DNA of 34,832 bases, taken from Candidatus Bathyarchaeota archaeon (GTDB taxonomy: Archaea; Thermoproteota; Bathyarchaeia; Bathyarchaeales; Bathycorpusculaceae). The notes under the pieces are model-generated. The model saw nothing but the letters and a program-made list of their open reading frames with translations. It was not told the origin of the DNA and did no database searches. The translations under genes and the position numbers were made by a program. The stretch spans positions 1 through 34,832 of the forward strand of contig JAUWJK010000007.1 in the NCBI GenBank assembly GCA_030607735.1, given 5' to 3'. Each line of letters begins with the position of its first letter. Position 1 is the first letter of the stretch. Of this stretch, positions 1 through 7,093 are shown in pieces.

Positions 1-47
1 ATGAAAAATAGATTGATCTGATTCAATATTTCCATTAGTTGATTAAA

Positions 48-776
48 ATGACAATGAGAGCATTTGATGTAGCAATTATAGGTATTTGTGCAGCTTTGTA
101 CGCAGTAATTGGTCGATTAACAGATTTTGGATTAACAGTAGGAGGCGTATCTTTTCTCCCAGCTGTTGTAATACCAGCAGTATTCGCTGTACTTTTTGGA
201 CCTTGGACAGGAGGAGTTGGAGCAGCAATAGGTATTTTTATAAAAGACATGATAACTCATGGTGATCCTCTATTAAGTCTTAGTGCTGGTGTCACAAGCA
301 ATTTTGTAGCATTTTTCTTAATTGGATACATTTCGCGTACTGAACTTGATAGTAAAAAAATTATTGCGAGCCTAATTATCGGTAGCGCTACAATATTAGC
401 GGCGTTTCTGTTGCCAGATCTTTCAGTGTTTCAAACTATTGTTTTGTTTGTTGGTACTGTTATTTCTACTTTAATCATAATTGCAGTTGTTTACAAATTC
501 GCACATGAGTGGAAAAGTTATACAGTTGGATCTATTATCGGGATTGGTGTAGGTAGCATCATAATTCCAATTGTACTTTGGGTATATAGTCAGATTTTAG
601 TTTCACCAAATGTCTATAATGCACCATTGCAGGTTTCAATTATGCCCATAATATTTGTTTGGACCTTTGCGACTGAAATACCTTTTATTCTTTTTCTAGG
701 ACCACCCATAATAAAAGCTTGTTACAAAGCATTTCCATCCCTCAAAAAAGAGAAGAAAGAAGAGAAAAACAATTGA
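48..776 (+). CDS. ECF transporter S component (putative pantoate/CoA-precursor uptake)
   Basis: This is a hydrophobic protein of about 242 residues with roughly six membrane segments. The N-terminal helix reads IGICAALYAVIG and is followed by the Gly/Pro-rich loop VGGVSFLPAVVIPAVFA, as is usual for substrate-binding S components of energy-coupling factor transporters. No EcfA or EcfT gene is in the window, so it would depend on a shared energizing module encoded elsewhere. It ends with TGA inside TTGA, where the TTG starts pantoate kinase, so the two genes are translationally coupled. That context suggests a substrate of the archaeal CoA pathway, most simply pantoate. The substrate is inference; the family call is from the overall pattern. 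ATG at 48 was chosen; TTG at 39 and ATG at 54 are possible. Confidence 0.8.
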   Translation: MTMRAFDVAIIGICAALYAVIGRLTDFGLTVGGVSFLPAVVIPAVFAVLFGPWTGGVGAAIGIFIKDMITHGDPLLSLSAGVTSNFVAFFLIGYISRTELDSKKIIASLIIGSATILAAFLLPDLSVFQTIVLFVGTVISTLIIIAVVYKFAHEWKSYTVGSIIGIGVGSIIIPIVLWVYSQILVSPNVYNAPLQVSIMPIIFVWTFATEIPFILFLGPPIIKACYKAFPSLKKEKKEEKNN

Positions 777-1711
777 CATCTAGAAGCTCAAAAGCATTTT
801 CTCCAGCAGGAATCTCTAGCTTTTTTGAAGTTTGTGACAAAACAGCTGAAGGAAAACAAATCAAAGACTTAAAGAAAATAGGAGCAAGAGGTGGAGGTTT
901 TGGTATTCAGAAAGGAATACTAACTGAAGTTTCAGCCGTGGAATCAGAAAAAAATAATATAACAATTGTAATAAATGGAAAAATTGCAATTGACGCAGAT
1001 ACAACAAAAACTGTTGCAAAAATGCTTTTAGATAAAGTCTATAAAAATTACCAAATAACTATTAAACATAAAGTCGAAATTCCAATAGGAACAGGTTTTG
1101 GCACCAGTGCCGGCGGAGCATTAACAACAGGTTTGGCTCTTTCAAAAATCCTGCAACTGAACCTTACCTATAATCAAATTGGCAAAATTGCCCATATAGC
1201 TGAAGTTAAATGTAAAACGGGATTAGGCACAGTTGGACCTCTCATGATAGGAGGCTGTGTTTTAACTATTGAACCAGGAGCACCAGGAATTAGCATACTC
1301 GATCGGATTCCATTAACTGATGAATATGCAATAATATCAGGAATTGTGAACCCTATACCAACAAAACAAATATTAAACTCCCAAAAAAGAAGACAAGAAA
1401 TAAATTGTTGGGGAAAAAAAACCCTTAAACAAATCCTCTATGAACCAACAGTAGAAAACTTTCTAAATTGTTCATTGAAATTTGCTGAAAAAACAGGTTT
1501 TATGACATCACAAACTAGAAAATTGGCAAAAATCGCAAAAGAATTAGGGGCAATAGGGTCAGCTCAAAATATGGTTGGAGAAGCAATCCACACTCTTACT
1601 CTCCAAAAAAACATAAAAAGTATTGTGGAAGCTTTTAACAAGATACTGCCAAAAGAAAAAGTTTTTACTTCAAAAATTGATTTTCAAGGAGCCAGACTAC
1701 TAAAAAATTGA
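773..1711 (+). CDS. Pantoate kinase (GHMP family)
   Basis: Phosphorylates pantoate to 4-phosphopantoate, the first step of the archaeal route to 4'-phosphopantothenate, which replaces bacterial pantothenate kinase. The product is about 312 residues. It opens with KAFSPAGISSFFEV, like the AFSPxHIxxFFE start of the archaeal enzyme. It carries the GHMP glycine/serine ATP loop PIGTGFGTSAGGALTTGLA near residue 105 and GCVLTIEPGAPG further on. A longer open frame begins at 719 but that part overlaps the transporter gene. TTG at 773, overlapping the upstream stop as TTGA, puts the start just before the conserved N terminus. It is followed by CoaD through a second TTGA overlap. The cytoplasmic enzyme and both neighbours form a CoA-synthesis operon. 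Confidence 0.88.
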   Translation: MTSRSSKAFSPAGISSFFEVCDKTAEGKQIKDLKKIGARGGGFGIQKGILTEVSAVESEKNNITIVINGKIAIDADTTKTVAKMLLDKVYKNYQITIKHKVEIPIGTGFGTSAGGALTTGLALSKILQLNLTYNQIGKIAHIAEVKCKTGLGTVGPLMIGGCVLTIEPGAPGISILDRIPLTDEYAIISGIVNPIPTKQILNSQKRRQEINCWGKKTLKQILYEPTVENFLNCSLKFAEKTGFMTSQTRKLAKIAKELGAIGSAQNMVGEAIHTLTLQKNIKSIVEAFNKILPKEKVFTSKIDFQGARLLKN

Positions 1712-2184
1712 AAAAATACAAAAAAGTGGCAATTGGCGGAACTTTTGATAAACTCCACAAAGGACACAAAATCTTACTTTCAAAAGCGTTTGAGATAGGT
1801 GAACATATCCTAATTGGGTTATGTTCTGATGAATTTGTAGACAGCATTAGAAAACCCCATCCTACAGCTCGATTTGAGAAAAGATTGGAAGAACTTGAGG
1901 TTTTTTTAAAAAGACAAGAGTTCTATGAAAGAGCTGAAATTATTCCACTAAATGACCCTTTTGGAAACACGATAAGTAACAAATGCATAGAAGCATTAGT
2001 TGTAAGTCACGAAACAAAAAGAGTGGCTATTGAAATTAATAAAAAACGTGCCAGAGCTGGTTTTCATCCACTTGAAATTATAATAATAAACATGGTTCCA
2101 GCTGAAAACTATAAACCAATTTCAACAACAAGAATTCGAAAGGGAGAAATAGATCGAGAAGGACACATCTTAAGAAAACTTTAG
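1708..2184 (+). CDS. coaD: Phosphopantetheine adenylyltransferase, archaeal type
   Basis: Transfers AMP from ATP to 4'-phosphopantetheine to give dephospho-CoA, the penultimate step of CoA synthesis. The 158-residue protein has the nucleotidyltransferase signature at its N terminus: AIGGTFDKLHKGHKILL (T/HxGH type, here HKGH) and, near the C terminus, the second ATP-contact motif ISTTRIRKGEID. Length and motifs match the archaeal/eukaryotic PPAT family rather than bacterial CoaD. The TTG start at 1708 overlaps the pantoate kinase stop as TTGA. It is the last gene of the rightward CoA operon and converges on the RHH fusion gene 16 bp away. Confidence 0.9.
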   Translation: MKKYKKVAIGGTFDKLHKGHKILLSKAFEIGEHILIGLCSDEFVDSIRKPHPTARFEKRLEELEVFLKRQEFYERAEIIPLNDPFGNTISNKCIEALVVSHETKRVAIEINKKRARAGFHPLEIIIINMVPAENYKPISTTRIRKGEIDREGHILRKL

Positions 2185-2200
2185 GAAGTTTCTAGTATTT

Positions 2201-3130
2201 TTAAAGAATTTCACCGATTATAGAGAGTGGTTTAGCAAATAGAGAAGAGATATCATCAGTTTTTTCAGGAGGAACAGTAAAAAGAACAACAGTTGCAGGT
2301 CCTGCTGATTTGTGTAAATCCACTTTTTGGACATTTCTTAATTTTAATTGCCTTCCAATGCCATTTGCTAGCATTCTAGCCTCATTAGCAATTCCATGGG
2401 AACCAACAGTAACAATATCATGAATAAATCTCTTTTGAGAGAGCAAAGTTACATCTCTCAAATTAGCAATCTCACCTCTGGATTCAGAAGGAACAACTTC
2501 GTTACCAATTCTGGGTTTTCCAAGAGCCATAAGTAAATCACCTGGATGAGTTTTTCCAACTCTTAGCTGATCATCATTAGCTAAGCCAATAACTGTTAAC
2601 CCAACTCCTGTCTGAACAGTTTTAAAGTTGTCCTCTGTATTTTCCATTAATATCTGATTAGGTTCAAGACCCAATACTTGAGATTCATTCCTTATTCCTT
2701 GTAATATTTCATAACCAGTTGGCTCTTTCTCAACCCCCAAAGTGGCAGATATTAATAACGGAAAAGCACCTGTAGCCGCTACATCCATAAGTGCAACTCT
2801 TGCAAGAAATTTTCCAAGAACTTTGCCTTCAACGTTTATTTGATCCATGGCTTTTGGACCAATCCCACCAGAAGATGTCGAACCCACCACTATAGCATGA
2901 CCTGTAGGAATTTTGAGAATGGAAACGTCCCCTCGTCGAGAATAGCTAACTTGAGAAGGTTTAACTTTAAAAGTTATAGGTCTTAGCAAAGTTCCAACAT
3001 TTTCAATAATATGCAGATAAACTACTAGTGATTGTCTTATAATTTCAGAACGAGTAATCCCATGCTTGTTTGAGAGATGTTCCAGCTTGGATGTTACTTC
3101 ATCAGAAATGCGTACATTTACAACCTTCAC
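2201..3130 (-). CDS. Ribbon-helix-helix DNA-binding domain fused to an AIR-synthase-like domain (putative ligand-sensing repressor)
   Basis: The protein has 309 residues with a GTG start. Residues 1-45 form a CopG/NikR-type ribbon-helix-helix: strand KVVNVRISDEV, helix SKLEHLSNKHG, then ITRSEIIRQSLVVYL. Residues from about 60 to 309 are homologous to the AIR-synthase-like protein at 3725-4501. Shared blocks include SGGIGPKAMDQI, LGKFLARVALMDVAATGA, EPTGYEILQGI, QTGVGLTVIGLA and KSAGPATVVLF. The neighbour's GCDSAGG is GSTSSGG here, and its TGGSEKNF is MENTEDNF, so the likely metal/phosphate-binding Asp and Gly-Gly are lost. This suggests a domain kept for ligand sensing rather than catalysis. 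It is divergent from the ECF S/AIR-synthase pair, which it could control. The regulatory role is inference. Confidence 0.75.
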   Translation of the reverse strand: MKVVNVRISDEVTSKLEHLSNKHGITRSEIIRQSLVVYLHIIENVGTLLRPITFKVKPSQVSYSRRGDVSILKIPTGHAIVVGSTSSGGIGPKAMDQINVEGKVLGKFLARVALMDVAATGAFPLLISATLGVEKEPTGYEILQGIRNESQVLGLEPNQILMENTEDNFKTVQTGVGLTVIGLANDDQLRVGKTHPGDLLMALGKPRIGNEVVPSESRGEIANLRDVTLLSQKRFIHDIVTVGSHGIANEARMLANGIGRQLKLRNVQKVDLHKSAGPATVVLFTVPPEKTDDISSLFAKPLSIIGEIL

Positions 3131-3212
3131 AAGTAATACACACTACGGTTGTAATACATATGGTAAGTCTTTTATTATTTTCCATTCCATCTTAAGAAAA
3201 GATGATAAAAAA
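3131..3212. promoter_or_regulatory. Divergent intergenic region with direct repeats (candidate operator)
   Basis: This 82-bp region separates the RHH-fusion gene (leftward) from the ECF S gene (rightward). It contains two copies of GTAATACA at 3133-3140 and 3151-3158, 18 bp apart, which suits cooperative binding of RHH dimers on one face of the helix. Read leftward, the second copy falls inside the TATA-like stretch ATGTATTAC, about 25 nt upstream of the GTG start. Read rightward, TTTTATTATT at about 3169-3178 could be the TATA box for the transporter operon. The repeats are visible; operator function is inferred. Confidence 0.4.
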
Positions 3213-3728
3213 ATGGCTAATAAAACAACTAAAATAAGTAATATGTTGAAAATTTCTTCACCTTGGTTTTTTGCACGATTAGCAATTTTTTCTGCACTAA
3301 CAGTTATAGGTTCTACTATTAAGACGCCAAGTCCCATTCCATCTGTATCTTTTGATTCAACTCCCGGATTCTTTGCAGCCTTATATTTTGGAATTCTTGA
3401 TGGAGCATTAATTTCAGGAATAGGACATTTGGTCACCTCTACCCTAAGCGGATTTCCACTAGGCATTTATCACATTCCAATCGCTATGGGTATGGCATTA
3501 TCTGGAGCGGCTATAGCTTTAATAAATAAAATAAACAAAAAATGGGGATTTATTCCAGGTCTAATAATAGGAGTAATAATTAACACTGCATCAGTAGTGT
3601 TTGCAGTTCCTGTAATAACTTGGGCTGGTGCAATTGCATTTGCTCCAGTTCTATTATTCGGCGCAAGTTTAAATGCTATTGTTTCAGGAATAATGTATAT
3701 TGCTTTGAGAGGAAAACTTTCAATTTGA
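3213..3728 (+). CDS. ECF transporter S component, CblT-like (predicted alpha-ribazole uptake)
   Basis: Small membrane protein of 171 residues. The start used is ATG at 3213 (MANKTTKIS), because the longer open frame runs back into the divergent gene. After a charged N terminus come about five hydrophobic segments with the pattern STPGFFAALYFG, GHLVTSTLSGFPLGIYH and IAMGMALSGAA. This pattern resembles S components annotated as CblT/CbrT-type transporters of cobamide precursors. It is coupled by a TTGA overlap to a stand-alone AIR-synthase-like protein, the same pairing as the CblT transporter and CblS kinase of alpha-ribazole salvage in Firmicutes. No ECF energizing genes are nearby. The S-component call is firm; the alpha-ribazole substrate rests on context and recalled family features. 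Confidence 0.72.
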   Translation: MANKTTKISNMLKISSPWFFARLAIFSALTVIGSTIKTPSPIPSVSFDSTPGFFAALYFGILDGALISGIGHLVTSTLSGFPLGIYHIPIAMGMALSGAAIALINKINKKWGFIPGLIIGVIINTASVVFAVPVITWAGAIAFAPVLLFGASLNAIVSGIMYIALRGKLSI

Positions 3729-4501
3729 AAAAAGATTTGTTTCTTCCAACACCGATGAAATCAATCAGAGATATTCTTATCTTTGAGTTTTCTTCTGGTG
3801 AGAAATTGGTAGTTGGATGTGATTCAGCTGGAGGAATTGGCCCAAAATCACTAGATAAGATTAAAGTTGATGGATACACTCTAGGAAAATTCACTGCACG
3901 AGTTACATTGATGGAAGTATTAGCTACTGGCGCAAAACCATTTTGCATAATAGATACACTTAGCGTAGAATTAAAACCCACTGGACTTGAGATTTTAGAG
4001 GGAATAAAAGAAGAAGCAAAAATAGCAGGTTTAGATCCTAAAGCTGCAATAACTGGAGGATCAGAAAAAAATTTTAAAGTTGAACAAACGGGCATAGGAG
4101 TTACTGTTATCGGACTAGCAAAAAAAGAAGGTCTGCGAATTGGAACATCAAAACCAAATAATATTATTGTAGCCATTGGCACACCTTGCGTAGGAAACGA
4201 AGTTATTTATGCAGAAAAAAACCAACGAATTGCAGATTTAATAGACCTCCAAAACCTGCTAAATTGCAAGTTTATCAATGAGATTATTCCAGTGGGTTCA
4301 GAAGGAATCAATTATGAAATTCAAGTATTAGCAAAGTGCTCTAATCTTAAATACAAACTAATTAATCAATCCAAATTAAATTTGAAAAAATCAGCAGGCC
4401 CAGCTACCGTAATTCTTGCTAGCTTAGATAAATCAAAACTAGCTGAACTTAAAACAATTATCGCCAAACCTATTAAAATAATCGCGCAATTACTCGCATA
4501 A
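3725..4501 (+). CDS. AIR-synthase-like (PurM/ThiL superfamily) protein, CblS-like kinase candidate
   Basis: The protein has 258 residues from the TTG at 3725, which overlaps the transporter stop as TTGA. It is a single PurM-like ATP-binding fold: VVGCDSAGGIGPKSLDKI near residue 25 (with Asp where the RHH-fused paralogue has Thr), then LGKFTARVTLMEVLATGAKP, TGGSEKNFKVEQTGIGVTVIG and the C-terminal KSAGPATVILAS. It lacks the second-substrate features of PurM, ThiL or SelD that I would expect in a housekeeping enzyme of those types. Coupling to an ECF S component suggests it phosphorylates the imported small molecule, as CblS does with alpha-ribazole. An internal ATG at 3755 is a less likely start because there is no gap to the upstream gene. 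Confidence 0.72.
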   Translation: MKKDLFLPTPMKSIRDILIFEFSSGEKLVVGCDSAGGIGPKSLDKIKVDGYTLGKFTARVTLMEVLATGAKPFCIIDTLSVELKPTGLEILEGIKEEAKIAGLDPKAAITGGSEKNFKVEQTGIGVTVIGLAKKEGLRIGTSKPNNIIVAIGTPCVGNEVIYAEKNQRIADLIDLQNLLNCKFINEIIPVGSEGINYEIQVLAKCSNLKYKLINQSKLNLKKSAGPATVILASLDKSKLAELKTIIAKPIKIIAQLLA

Positions 4502-4514
4502 ACTTAGGTAATAG

Positions 4515-4588
4515 CGGGCCCGGCGGGAATTGAACCCGTGACCCTCGGATTAAGAGTCCGATGCTCTGCCTTGCTAAGCTACGGGCCC
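4515..4588 (-). tRNA. tRNA-Lys(CTT)
   Basis: Read on the reverse strand, the acceptor stem GGGCCCG (4582-4588) pairs with CGGGCCC (4516-4522), and the discriminator is G at 4515. The anticodon arm GGACTCTTAATCC gives anticodon CTT, and the T arm contains GGGTTCAATTCCC. No intron is seen and CCA is not encoded. A TATA-like stretch (read leftward TTTAATATC) lies about 10-20 nt before the 5' end. Confidence 0.95.
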
Positions 4589-4737
4589 ACTAAAGATATT
4601 AAAAAACAAGCTTCATCAAGAAATATAGAGCTTACGGTTTCACATCATTTGTTTTTCATAAAACAATTCTCTAATTCAATCAAGTATAATAACATCTAAT
4701 ATCTAAACTGATTATAAAAATCTTAAAGGAAAGTATT

Positions 4738-5193
4738 ATGTTTCATAATAAACCCATTTCAATAACTCCAATTGGATATGTAGTAACCCAAGCTAAAGGT
4801 TCTGAGGTAAGGGATAAAAACATAATATCTCAAATAATTATCTACAATAAGTTTATTGAAGCCCTAAATTGTTTGGAAGAATTTTCTCACTTATTTATCC
4901 TGTTTTGGTTAAATAAAATTTCAACTAAAGACTTGCCCTTAAAAGTCCATCCTAGGGGTAGAAAAGAATTACCATTGGTTGGAGTTTTCGCTACAAGAAG
5001 CATGTTTCGTCCAAATCCAATTGGATTGACAATAGTTAAATTAATCAAAGTTGAAAAAAACGTATTATCTGTTCGCGGACTAGATGCATTCAATTTATCA
5101 CCTGTTTTAGACATTAAACCATACGATTTTTGGGATAAAAACAAAGAGATTAGCGTCCCAAAATGGTGGCAAAGTCTGGAAAAAGAAAAATAA
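4738..5193 (+). CDS. trmO: tRNA (N6-threonylcarbamoyladenosine(37)-N6)-methyltransferase TrmO (TsaA-like)
   Basis: SAM-dependent methyltransferase with the unusual beta-barrel TsaA fold; it methylates t6A at position 37 of ANN-decoding tRNAs. The protein has 151 residues, typical of the archaeal single-domain form. The N terminus ITPIGYVVT is followed by the family hallmarks HPRGRKELPLVGVFATRS (residues about 70-87), RPNPIGLT and VRGLDAFNLSPVLDIKPY. The ATG is preceded by AAAGGAAAG, a plausible ribosome-binding site. It is next to, and on the opposite strand from, a tRNA-Lys gene, but nothing shows coregulation. Confidence 0.88.
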   Translation: MFHNKPISITPIGYVVTQAKGSEVRDKNIISQIIIYNKFIEALNCLEEFSHLFILFWLNKISTKDLPLKVHPRGRKELPLVGVFATRSMFRPNPIGLTIVKLIKVEKNVLSVRGLDAFNLSPVLDIKPYDFWDKNKEISVPKWWQSLEKEK

Positions 5194-5267
5194 GCATTAT
5201 TTATGATTCAATGATGTTTAATTAATAGATCTATTTACTACATTTCACATGCTAAGGGTGGAAAATT

Positions 5268-5603
5268 ATGGATAAAGAACTAATCATGATAATGATTACC
5301 TCCAATTCAGAAAAAGAAGCAAAGATAATAATAAAAAATTTATTAAAAAATAGATTGATAGCATGTGGAAATTTAATTGGTCCCATATTTTCTAGTTTTT
5401 GGTGGGAAGGAGAAATTGAAAATAGCATAGAATATTTAGTTTTATTGAAGTCTAGAAAGGATTTATTTAAAAAAATTGAACAAGAGATATTGAAGTTTAA
5501 TAGTTATGAAATACCTGAAATTATTGTTTTTCCAATTATTGAAGGTTCAAAAGCGTATCTAGATTGGATAAATAAATGTCTTAACAAGTTTAACAAGCTA
5601 TAA
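5268..5603 (+). CDS. cutA: Divalent-cation tolerance protein CutA1
   Basis: The 111-residue protein is the usual length for CutA1, a trimeric ferredoxin-like-fold protein linked to divalent metal binding and tolerance; its molecular role is not settled. Family landmarks are ITSNSEKEAKIIIKNLL at the N terminus, RLIACGNLI, FWWEGEIENSIEYLVLLKSR and the C-terminal YEIPEIIVFPIIEGSKAYLDWI. It has a good Shine-Dalgarno (AAGGGTGG at 5254-5261). The stop codon sits directly before the palindrome upstream of the trp operon. Confidence 0.9.
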   Translation: MDKELIMIMITSNSEKEAKIIIKNLLKNRLIACGNLIGPIFSSFWWEGEIENSIEYLVLLKSRKDLFKKIEQEILKFNSYEIPEIIVFPIIEGSKAYLDWINKCLNKFNKL

Positions 5604-5604
5604 C

Positions 5605-5640
5605 GTACATTTATGTACTCAAAAGTCTTAAATAATACAA
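5605..5640 (+). promoter_or_regulatory. Putative trp operon operator and promoter
   Basis: A perfect 14-bp palindrome, GTACAT-TT-ATGTAC (5605-5618), lies 10 bp upstream of a TATA-like element TTAAATAAT (5628-5636). Its position fits a repressor or activator site. Its half-sites share GTACA with the TGTACA box known for the TrpY regulator of Methanothermobacter. No TrpY gene is in the window, so the regulator is unknown. It could instead belong to the end of cutA. Confidence 0.4.
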
Positions 5641-5676
5641 ATAAGTAGTGTTCAGAACCTTAAGGAACGTGTTAAC

Positions 5677-5785
5677 ATGAGGGATAGTATTTGGCAACCA
5701 CCAACCTAAGAGAACCAGTAAAACTCACAAATTAAAATATAAAAAAATCCCTTTTTCAGAAACTCCACTTGACATTTTTTCAAAG
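5677..5785 (+). other. 5' extension of trpE without an in-frame start; short Trp-containing ORF inside
   Basis: The trpE frame stays open upstream from 5786 to the stop at 5678-5680. It encodes KLKYKKIPFSETPLDIFSK directly before the first ATG, which looks like a normal TrpE N terminus. No ATG, GTG or TTG exists in that frame here. Two other frames do have starts. ATG 5677 gives MRDSIWQPPT and stops at 5707-5709; shifting +1 at its stop joins the trpE frame. TTG 5691, preceded by GAGGGAT, gives a start resembling MATTNLREPVKLTN; it would join trpE if one A were added in the AAA at 5729-5731. This could be an assembly error, a real mutation, a recoding site, or a leader ORF. Confidence 0.55.
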
Positions 5786-7093
5786 ATGCACAACAATTAT
5801 AAAAACGCATATATTCTCGAATCTATGGAAGGACCAAAAAAATTAGTCGAGTTTTCTTTCATAGGATTTGATCCTAAAGTAACAATTGAGATAAAAAATA
5901 AAGTGGCCATCATCCGTAATGAAAAAACAGGTGAAGAAAACAGGGAAAAAACTAACACCCCCCTAAAAACTCTTAAAAAAATTATGAAACATGAAACAAT
6001 TCCAAACAACGAATTCAGACTGATTGGAGGTGCAATAGGTTATATTTCCTACGATGCTATCCGTTATTGGGAAAAAATCCCCAATAACGCGAAAAACGAT
6101 TTGAACTTTCCAGATATTCAACTGGGAATTTTTGACGATGGCATAGTTTTTGATCATAAACAAAAAAAAGCCTTTTACTATTACCTTACAGACAACAGAT
6201 TATCAGAAGTTAAAGAACTACTCAAAAAACCAAGCAATTATCAACCCCTAAGTCATAGTCAACCAAAATTAAACATAACAAAAAAACAATTTGAAAGAGC
6301 TGTCAAAAAAGCTAAAAACTATGTAACTGCTGGCGATATTTTTCAAGTGGTCCTTTCTAAAAGATATGAGTTCTCAATTAAAGGAAATCTACTTTCTTTT
6401 TATAGATCTTTACGCGAAATTAATCCATCACCCTACATGTATTTTCTCAAAGAAGGAGATAGAAAAATTGTTGGATCAAGTCCAGAAATGCTCGTTAGAG
6501 TTGACAAAAGAGAGGTTAACACATTTCCGATAGCAGGTACAAGACCCTGTGCAGATAATCCTATTAAAAACAAACTATTAGCCCAAGATTTGCTAAATGA
6601 TCCAAAAGAACGAGCAGAACATTTAATGTTAGTTGATTTAGCAAGAAATGATATCGGACGAATAGCTAAATTTGGAAGTGTCAGAGTTCCAGAATTTATG
6701 AAAGTGCACAAGTATAGCCACGTACAACATATAGTATCCCAAGTATCAGGCAAACTCAAAGATGAAAATGAAAGCTATGATGCTCTAAGAGCAGTTTTTC
6801 CAGCCGGAACTGTTTCAGGGGCTCCTAAAATTAGAGCAATGGAAATTATCGAAGAACTTGAACCAACCAGAAGAGGGCCTTATGCAGGCGCTGTAGGATA
6901 TTTCTCTTTTAATGGTAACTCTGATTTTGCAATTACAATCAGAACTTTATTTGCAAACAAAAACAAAGCTTACATCCAAGCAGGAGCTGGAATAGTAGCA
7001 GATTCTATTCCCGAAAAGGAATGGTTTGAAACAGATCATAAAGCTCAAGCTTTGATAAAAGCCTTAAAACATTGCGGAGATAAAAAACATTGA
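5786..7093 (+). CDS. trpE: Anthranilate synthase component I
   Basis: Converts chorismate to anthranilate using ammonia supplied by TrpG; first committed step of tryptophan synthesis. The 435-residue frame from ATG 5786 has AYILES (the LLES-type tryptophan feedback element), [20 protein letters not shown], the chorismate-binding core [27 protein letters not shown] and [17 protein letters not shown], and the C-terminal [15 protein letters not shown]. The start is uncertain: about 20-30 conserved-looking residues lie upstream of this ATG without a start codon. If they are absent, the protein loses its first strand. The gene ends in a TTGA overlap with trpG, so synthesis of the two subunits is coupled. 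Confidence 0.9.

Follow-up and report, generated by a model that had tools for sequence, protein, structure and literature searches.

A predicted ribbon-helix-helix regulator of cobamide lower-ligand salvage with a CblS-like domain in Bathyarchaeia

Background

Some regulators of vitamin metabolism are derived from enzymes. Examples are ThiR (with a ThiN domain), RbkR (riboflavin kinase), NrtR (Nudix domain), BirA and NadR. As generally understood, these join a DNA-binding domain to a sensor that is an enzyme of the pathway, and govern uptake or salvage of that same vitamin.

Other described systems are close in different ways. NikR and other ligand-domain RHH (ribbon-helix-helix) regulators have an RHH N-terminus and a C-terminal ligand-binding oligomerisation domain, and use an inverted-repeat operator. 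Bacterial cobalamin riboswitches control cobamide uptake and salvage genes. In bacteria like Listeria innocua, Lactobacillus and Geobacillus, the CblT/CblS salvage genes are ordered as an ECF S component followed by an AIRS-like kinase. TrmBL1/Tgr and SurR use one palindrome to activate some genes from upstream and to repress others from downstream (PMC4706686).

The locus described here lies in a stretch of 34,832 nucleotides from a Candidatus Bathyarchaeota archaeon (contig JAUWJK010000007.1 of assembly GCA_030607735.1), called the window below. It carries a gene for an RHH domain fused to a CblS-like domain, divergent from a cblT-cblS-like pair (Table 1). Like the enzyme-derived regulators, the fusion combines a DNA-binding domain with a pathway-enzyme domain, and its predicted operator precedes cblT-cblS, cobT and an orphan membrane gene called c6. 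It differs from them in having RHH for HTH, a domain of the CblS/AIRS fold, and a cobamide lower ligand in place of thiamin, flavin, NAD or biotin.

Compared with NikR, a probable AIRS pseudo-kinase takes the place of the ACT domain as sensor, and the operator has arms of 8 bp and a 2-bp spacer. The protein families of TrmBL1/Tgr and SurR are unrelated to the fusion, whose dual mode is proposed from operator position only. Where the riboswitches act as RNA, the system here is a predicted protein-DNA one. The pair at 3213-4501 keeps the bacterial gene order; unlike its bacterial counterparts it is archaeal and divergent from a dedicated predicted regulator, and the bacterial operons examined carry no such fusion.

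The general kind, a DNA-binding domain plus a pathway-enzyme sensor, is already known. Neither a regulator of RHH plus AIRS architecture nor a protein regulator of cobamide lower-ligand salvage was found in the open-access literature searched; the original prediction likewise knew of no described regulator of this architecture. Nor did that literature yield a description of an RHH domain joined to a CblS-type one, or of the operator, the spacing and the cobamide regulon that go with it.

Table 1 Features of the locus, with positions in the window unless a locus is named.
Feature	Position	Strand	Details
Predicted RHH + CblS-like (AIRS) fusion regulator	2201..3130	-	309 aa, GTG start, intact ORF
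Layout of the fusion			RHH, residues 1-48; CblS-like domain, about residues 62-309
Predicted RHH DNA-binding domain	2987..3130	-	residues 1-48, second helix 27-48 included
Predicted operator ACACTACGGTTGTAATAC	3140..3157	.	18-bp imperfect palindrome, 9 nt before the regulator start codon
TATA-like box CTTTTATT for cblT	3169..3176	+	separated from the operator by 11 nt
CblT-like ECF S component, predicted alpha-ribazole transporter	3213..3728	+	171 aa, ATG at 3213, Pfam ECF_trnsprt
CblS-like protein, predicted alpha-ribazole kinase	3725..4501	+	258 aa, TTG start
c6 orphan membrane protein	L089:1590-2177 and orthologues (alignment A4)	+	195 aa, multi-spanning

Results

Both Pfam matches of the fusion are barely above their cut-offs: RHH_1 scores 24.1 bits over residues 4-35 against a cut-off of 20.5, AIRS 24.3 bits over residues 68-155 against one of 24. 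The N-terminus is of the RHH (CopG/MetJ/Arc) kind, with a beta-alpha-alpha arrangement in some 45 residues that fits the RHH profile. Helices are found at 10-23 and 27-48 in the AlphaFold model (pLDDT 88), and the N and R of the beta strand (NVR) are invariant in an alignment of Bathyarchaeial fusions. Foldseek matches the model to PurL, SelD, ThiL, HypE and PurM with E-values down to 9e-15, which places the protein in the AIRS fold.

The AIRS part aligns without gaps to the protein of 3725-4501(+) over 229 aa, with 46% identity (E=3e-71). Given these Pfam matches and this identity, the original prediction of an RHH domain joined to an AIR-synthase-like homologue of the stand-alone protein is upheld. 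The motif differences it quoted (GCDSAGG versus GSTSSGG, TGGSEKN versus MENTEDN) are correct, and the fusion is indeed divergent from the transporter/kinase pair, which is on the + strand. No further copy of either AIRS protein was found in this organism's own 1.6-Mb genome assembly.

Both genes of the pair are intact. The stop codon of cblT overlaps the start codon of the kinase gene (TTGA, 3725-3728), so the two look translationally coupled. With the kinase as query, tblastn matched seven plasmid-collection records only, from Listeria, Levilactobacillus, Lactiplantibacillus and Cytobacillus, at about 32% identity over 88%. In L. plantarum pMF1298-5 the homologue has an ECF S gene upstream, and cobS and then a phosphatase gene (cobC) downstream; the CblT-like protein is 32% identical to the cblT product of that plasmid, so that identity to this operon is about 32% for both proteins of the pair. 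The operon in L. plantarum has been named CblT, CblS, CobS, CobC (PMC6722938). Homology to bacterial CblS and an operon shared with cblT identify the 3725-4501 protein as CblS-like. A sequence search found no solved CblS structure.

Archaea of another family have CblT-CblS next to CobY-like, CobS, CbiZ-CobZ, CbiB and CobD-like genes. CobT was not found in five kinase-bearing genomes (G197, G118, G172, G028 and G210). Because of the CblS homology, the cobamide neighbourhoods and these CobT absences, the pair is best read as a predicted alpha-ribazole transporter and alpha-ribazole kinase. Alpha-ribazole had been proposed earlier as the likely pathway; homology, neighbourhoods and a conserved operator before cobamide-ligand genes bear this out. 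As a side observation, at three loci (L109-L111, in G282, G296 and G328) CblT-CblS is convergent with a cobamide assembly cluster that carries a CbiZ-CobZ (PgpA domain) fusion.

The active site was compared in an alignment of 36 fusions, 19 archaeal kinases and 3 bacterial CblS, using kinase numbering. The kinases carry C32-D33, with Asp33 kept by 19/19 of the archaeal proteins and by 3/3 of the bacterial CblS. All 36 fusions have lost it, with T at this position in 31 and S in 5. The Gly/Ser pair at 111-112 of the kinases is Glu-Asn in most fusions. The protein of the window itself lacks both Asp33 and the Gly/Ser loop, which are conserved in all CblS. In the genome's own ThiL-like protein the counterpart of Asp33 is the Asp of a 'TD' motif, by an alignment of low hhalign probability. 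In ThiL we take this Asp to be a metal-binding residue.

The earlier claim that likely catalytic or metal-binding residues have gone thus stands for Asp33 and the Gly/Ser loop. It does not stand for Asp16, Lys41, Asp44, Arg59, Glu114 and Glu198, which are kept in nearly all fusions, as is GP225-226. The fused domain is probably a pseudo-kinase that has lost catalysis.

Among 257 searched Bathyarchaeial genomes the fusion turned up at 36 loci, the window included, and stand-alone kinases in fewer; a wider sample of the phylum was searched as well. That wider sample added one fusion, L107, in another archaeal class. It is 28% identical, has an RHH score of 23.8 bits, and is divergent from cblT alone. 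Recurrence at 36 loci and once in another class means that the architecture is not a matter of chance.

The tree groups 37/37 fusions in a single clade, with 98/86 support and in 96% of bootstraps, and places the neighbouring kinases outside it; the long branches of L107 and the bacterial rows leave the deep order unsure. Since all fusions form one clade, the fused domain is an old paralogue. The tree rules out a recent duplication of the neighbouring kinase, and with it the earlier idea that the fusion was built from a copy of the enzyme next door.

Conservation of the fused domain between lineages is about 62-66%. Most genomes with a fusion have no stand-alone kinase, and most genomes of genus g4 are of this sort, with the fusion alone. 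Such fusion-only genomes mostly have no cblT nearby and keep cobT. The proposed association of RHH+AIRS fusions with ECF S and AIRS-like genes holds at this locus and fails for the many fusion genomes that lack the stand-alone kinase. Many of these fusions are associated with other predicted target genes, which makes the association wider than cblT-cblS.

The operator has the consensus GTATTACA-NN-TGTAATAC. With a position weight matrix (PWM), 27/32 fusion upstream regions score above the 99% level of the null, and 5/32 have no good site; most of the high-scoring sites lie 6-14 nt ahead of the start codon. This matrix was built on the fusion upstream sites themselves, so the 27/32 is circular. 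Therefore the operator was tested at other genes, by scanning 50 genomes with an IUPAC pattern that allows up to one mismatch.

The scan found unlinked perfect copies in genus g4, before gene family c6, and the operator also precedes cblT-cblS and cobT. In every fusion genome examined it lies upstream of cblT, that of the window among them, and G129 has it at a second, separate cblT too; it is absent before cblT in 8/8 fusion-less genomes. Two side observations concern single sites. At 3133-3140 of the window an additional half-site, GTAATACA, runs into the operator from its 5' side and is possibly a third RHH contact. A perfect operator at G077:C2:124915-124932 is in a 95% complete genome in which no fusion was found, from an assembly gap or a recent loss.

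Target promoters have a common layout: the operator, then a BRE-like stretch rich in purines, then CTTTTAT. The operator is thus upstream of BRE/TATA at every target gene. Operator and TATA are exactly 11 nt apart in 29/36 target promoters, with 9-12 nt between them in the others, versus 0/12 with 11 nt among fusion-only promoters; relatedness inflates these counts, and divergent genes may share one TATA. In the window, the - strand reading of 3169-3176 (AATAAAAG) may be a TATA for the regulator gene as well. At the fusion's own gene, the operator lies at the predicted transcription start.

The gene family c6 has no Pfam family. Its members are 53-71% identical across genera, and each is linked either to the operator or to cobT. 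Where c6 is not behind cobT, the operator lies 59-94 nt upstream in 17 of 17 cases, and these are outside the PWM training set. In genus g17, c6 follows cobT and is divergent from the fusion, sharing the fusion's operator. c6 was found in 21/36 fusion genomes, against 0/14 of those lacking the fusion (Fisher p 9e-5), where the genomes are related and independence is overstated. c6 is predicted to be a transporter of a lower-ligand base or nucleoside.

In a subclade of genus g4 (L121:3837-5911(-), L122, L123 and L124, in G081, G101, G089 and G077), the operator precedes an operon of a Zn-alcohol-dehydrogenase and an extra TrpD-like phosphoribosyltransferase, mostly divergent from an archaeal RibD-type reductase. 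This operon is a candidate for a new lower-ligand step. The fusion-less sister genomes G078-G080 have the phosphoribosyltransferase, with no operator match on its contig.

Some neighbours were rejected as targets. The c6/c7-type divergent neighbours in genus g4 (a membrane protein and a tubulin-like one) show synteny without conserved function. At 39-2184(+) the window has one operon of an ECF S component, a pantoate-kinase-like GHMP kinase and a CoaD-like gene, which looks like one for CoA-precursor uptake and synthesis. This cluster is a convergent neighbour of the fusion at 18 loci and has no operator; this is taken as synteny. In window positions 1-6000, no cobalamin riboswitch or other Rfam element reached threshold, only tRNA.

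Discussion

Our main reading is that the fusion is a transcription factor for cobamide lower-ligand salvage, with a pseudo-kinase sensor, that binds the palindrome, represses its own gene and probably activates, or else represses, its targets. We give this a probability of about 0.72. The CblS-type domain, minus its conserved Asp, would have been kept as a ligand-binding and dimerising module, and RHH dimers at the N-terminus would bind the palindrome. Its ligand would be alpha-ribazole or alpha-ribazole-5'-phosphate. Alpha-ribazole-5'-phosphate is the most economical effector because no other metabolite is a product of CblS as well as of CobT; alpha-ribazole itself or the base is possible instead. 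As the stand-alone kinase is missing from most genomes with the fusion, alpha-ribazole imported by CblT cannot be what is sensed in every case.

At its own promoter the bound protein would repress the fusion gene, since the operator covers the predicted transcription start. At cblT-cblS, cobT, c6 and a few others it would sit next to the BRE, 11 nt upstream of TATA. There it probably helps TFB/TBP, and less likely blocks them. The TrmBL1 rule is that an upstream site activates and a downstream site represses (PMC4706686), and archaeal regulators bound upstream of BRE/TATA usually activate, as reviewed in PMC5937170. Because of these rules, the operator positions suggest activation of the targets and repression of the fusion gene. 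This fits a dual TrmBL1/SurR mode, judged from position alone. The likely logic would be that low ligand turns uptake on.

The original prediction was a repressor that senses the pathway substrate or its phosphate through a dead enzyme domain. Acting as a pure repressor, the bound protein would block TBP, TFB or RNA polymerase on both divergent sides, with ligand releasing or loading it. The operator does cover the predicted start at the fusion's own gene, and BRE overlap can also block TFB (PMC5937170). Yet all targets have the site upstream of BRE/TATA at a near-constant 11 nt, while promoters that serve the regulator only do not, and this counts against simple occlusion because occlusion needs no such constancy. 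Repression throughout is possible but not what we expect. The palindrome could also belong to another transcription factor, given that its link to the fusion is by sequence and that G077 has a perfect site and no fusion found. We consider this very improbable, as genomes without the fusion lack the site before cblT, and the fusion gene itself is preceded by it across lineages.

Two further readings concern what the fused domain does. It could still be an active kinase, in the manner of NadR or RbkR, that replaces CblS where this is missing. The domain retains most of its predicted ligand residues and is well conserved between lineages, and most genus-g4 genomes have the fusion and no stand-alone kinase; the universal loss of Asp33, the change to Glu-Asn in most, and the fact that fusion-only genomes mostly lack a nearby cblT and keep cobT make such a bifunctional protein unlikely. 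We think it similarly unlikely that the AIRS pair handles some other vitamin precursor, which the regulator would then sense. The kinase's archaeal function is indeed assigned by homology, at only about 32% identity to bacterial CblS, and the adjoining 39-2184 cluster concerns coenzyme A. That cluster, however, is convergent and has no operator, while cobamide gene neighbourhoods occur in three separate archaeal groups and the kinase's distribution is complementary to that of CobT.

The predicted regulator of lower-ligand salvage may extend to a bolder picture, which we hold tentatively and at somewhat less than even odds. Here a dual archaeal regulator family would sense the B12 lower-ligand nucleotide through a pseudo-alpha-ribazole-kinase, repress itself, and activate uptake genes from a site at a fixed distance of 11 nt from TATA. 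Its regulon would bring to light further genes of cobamide metabolism, namely that of an orphan transporter and, within a single subclade, those of a TrpD-like phosphoribosyltransferase and an alcohol dehydrogenase.

Anoxic sediments hold Bathyarchaeia in abundance. In many of the genomes a common operator precedes genes for uptake and salvage of the B12 ligand, and from it follows a prediction of what the fusion senses and controls. The regulon suggests that the orphan membrane protein is likely to transport a lower ligand, and it draws attention to the TrpD-like enzyme. The constant spacing between operator and TATA makes this a clean system in which to study the contacts of archaeal regulators with TFB/TBP. 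Together, the predicted operator and regulon make the cobamide economy of Bathyarchaeia testable from sequence, with no isolate used.
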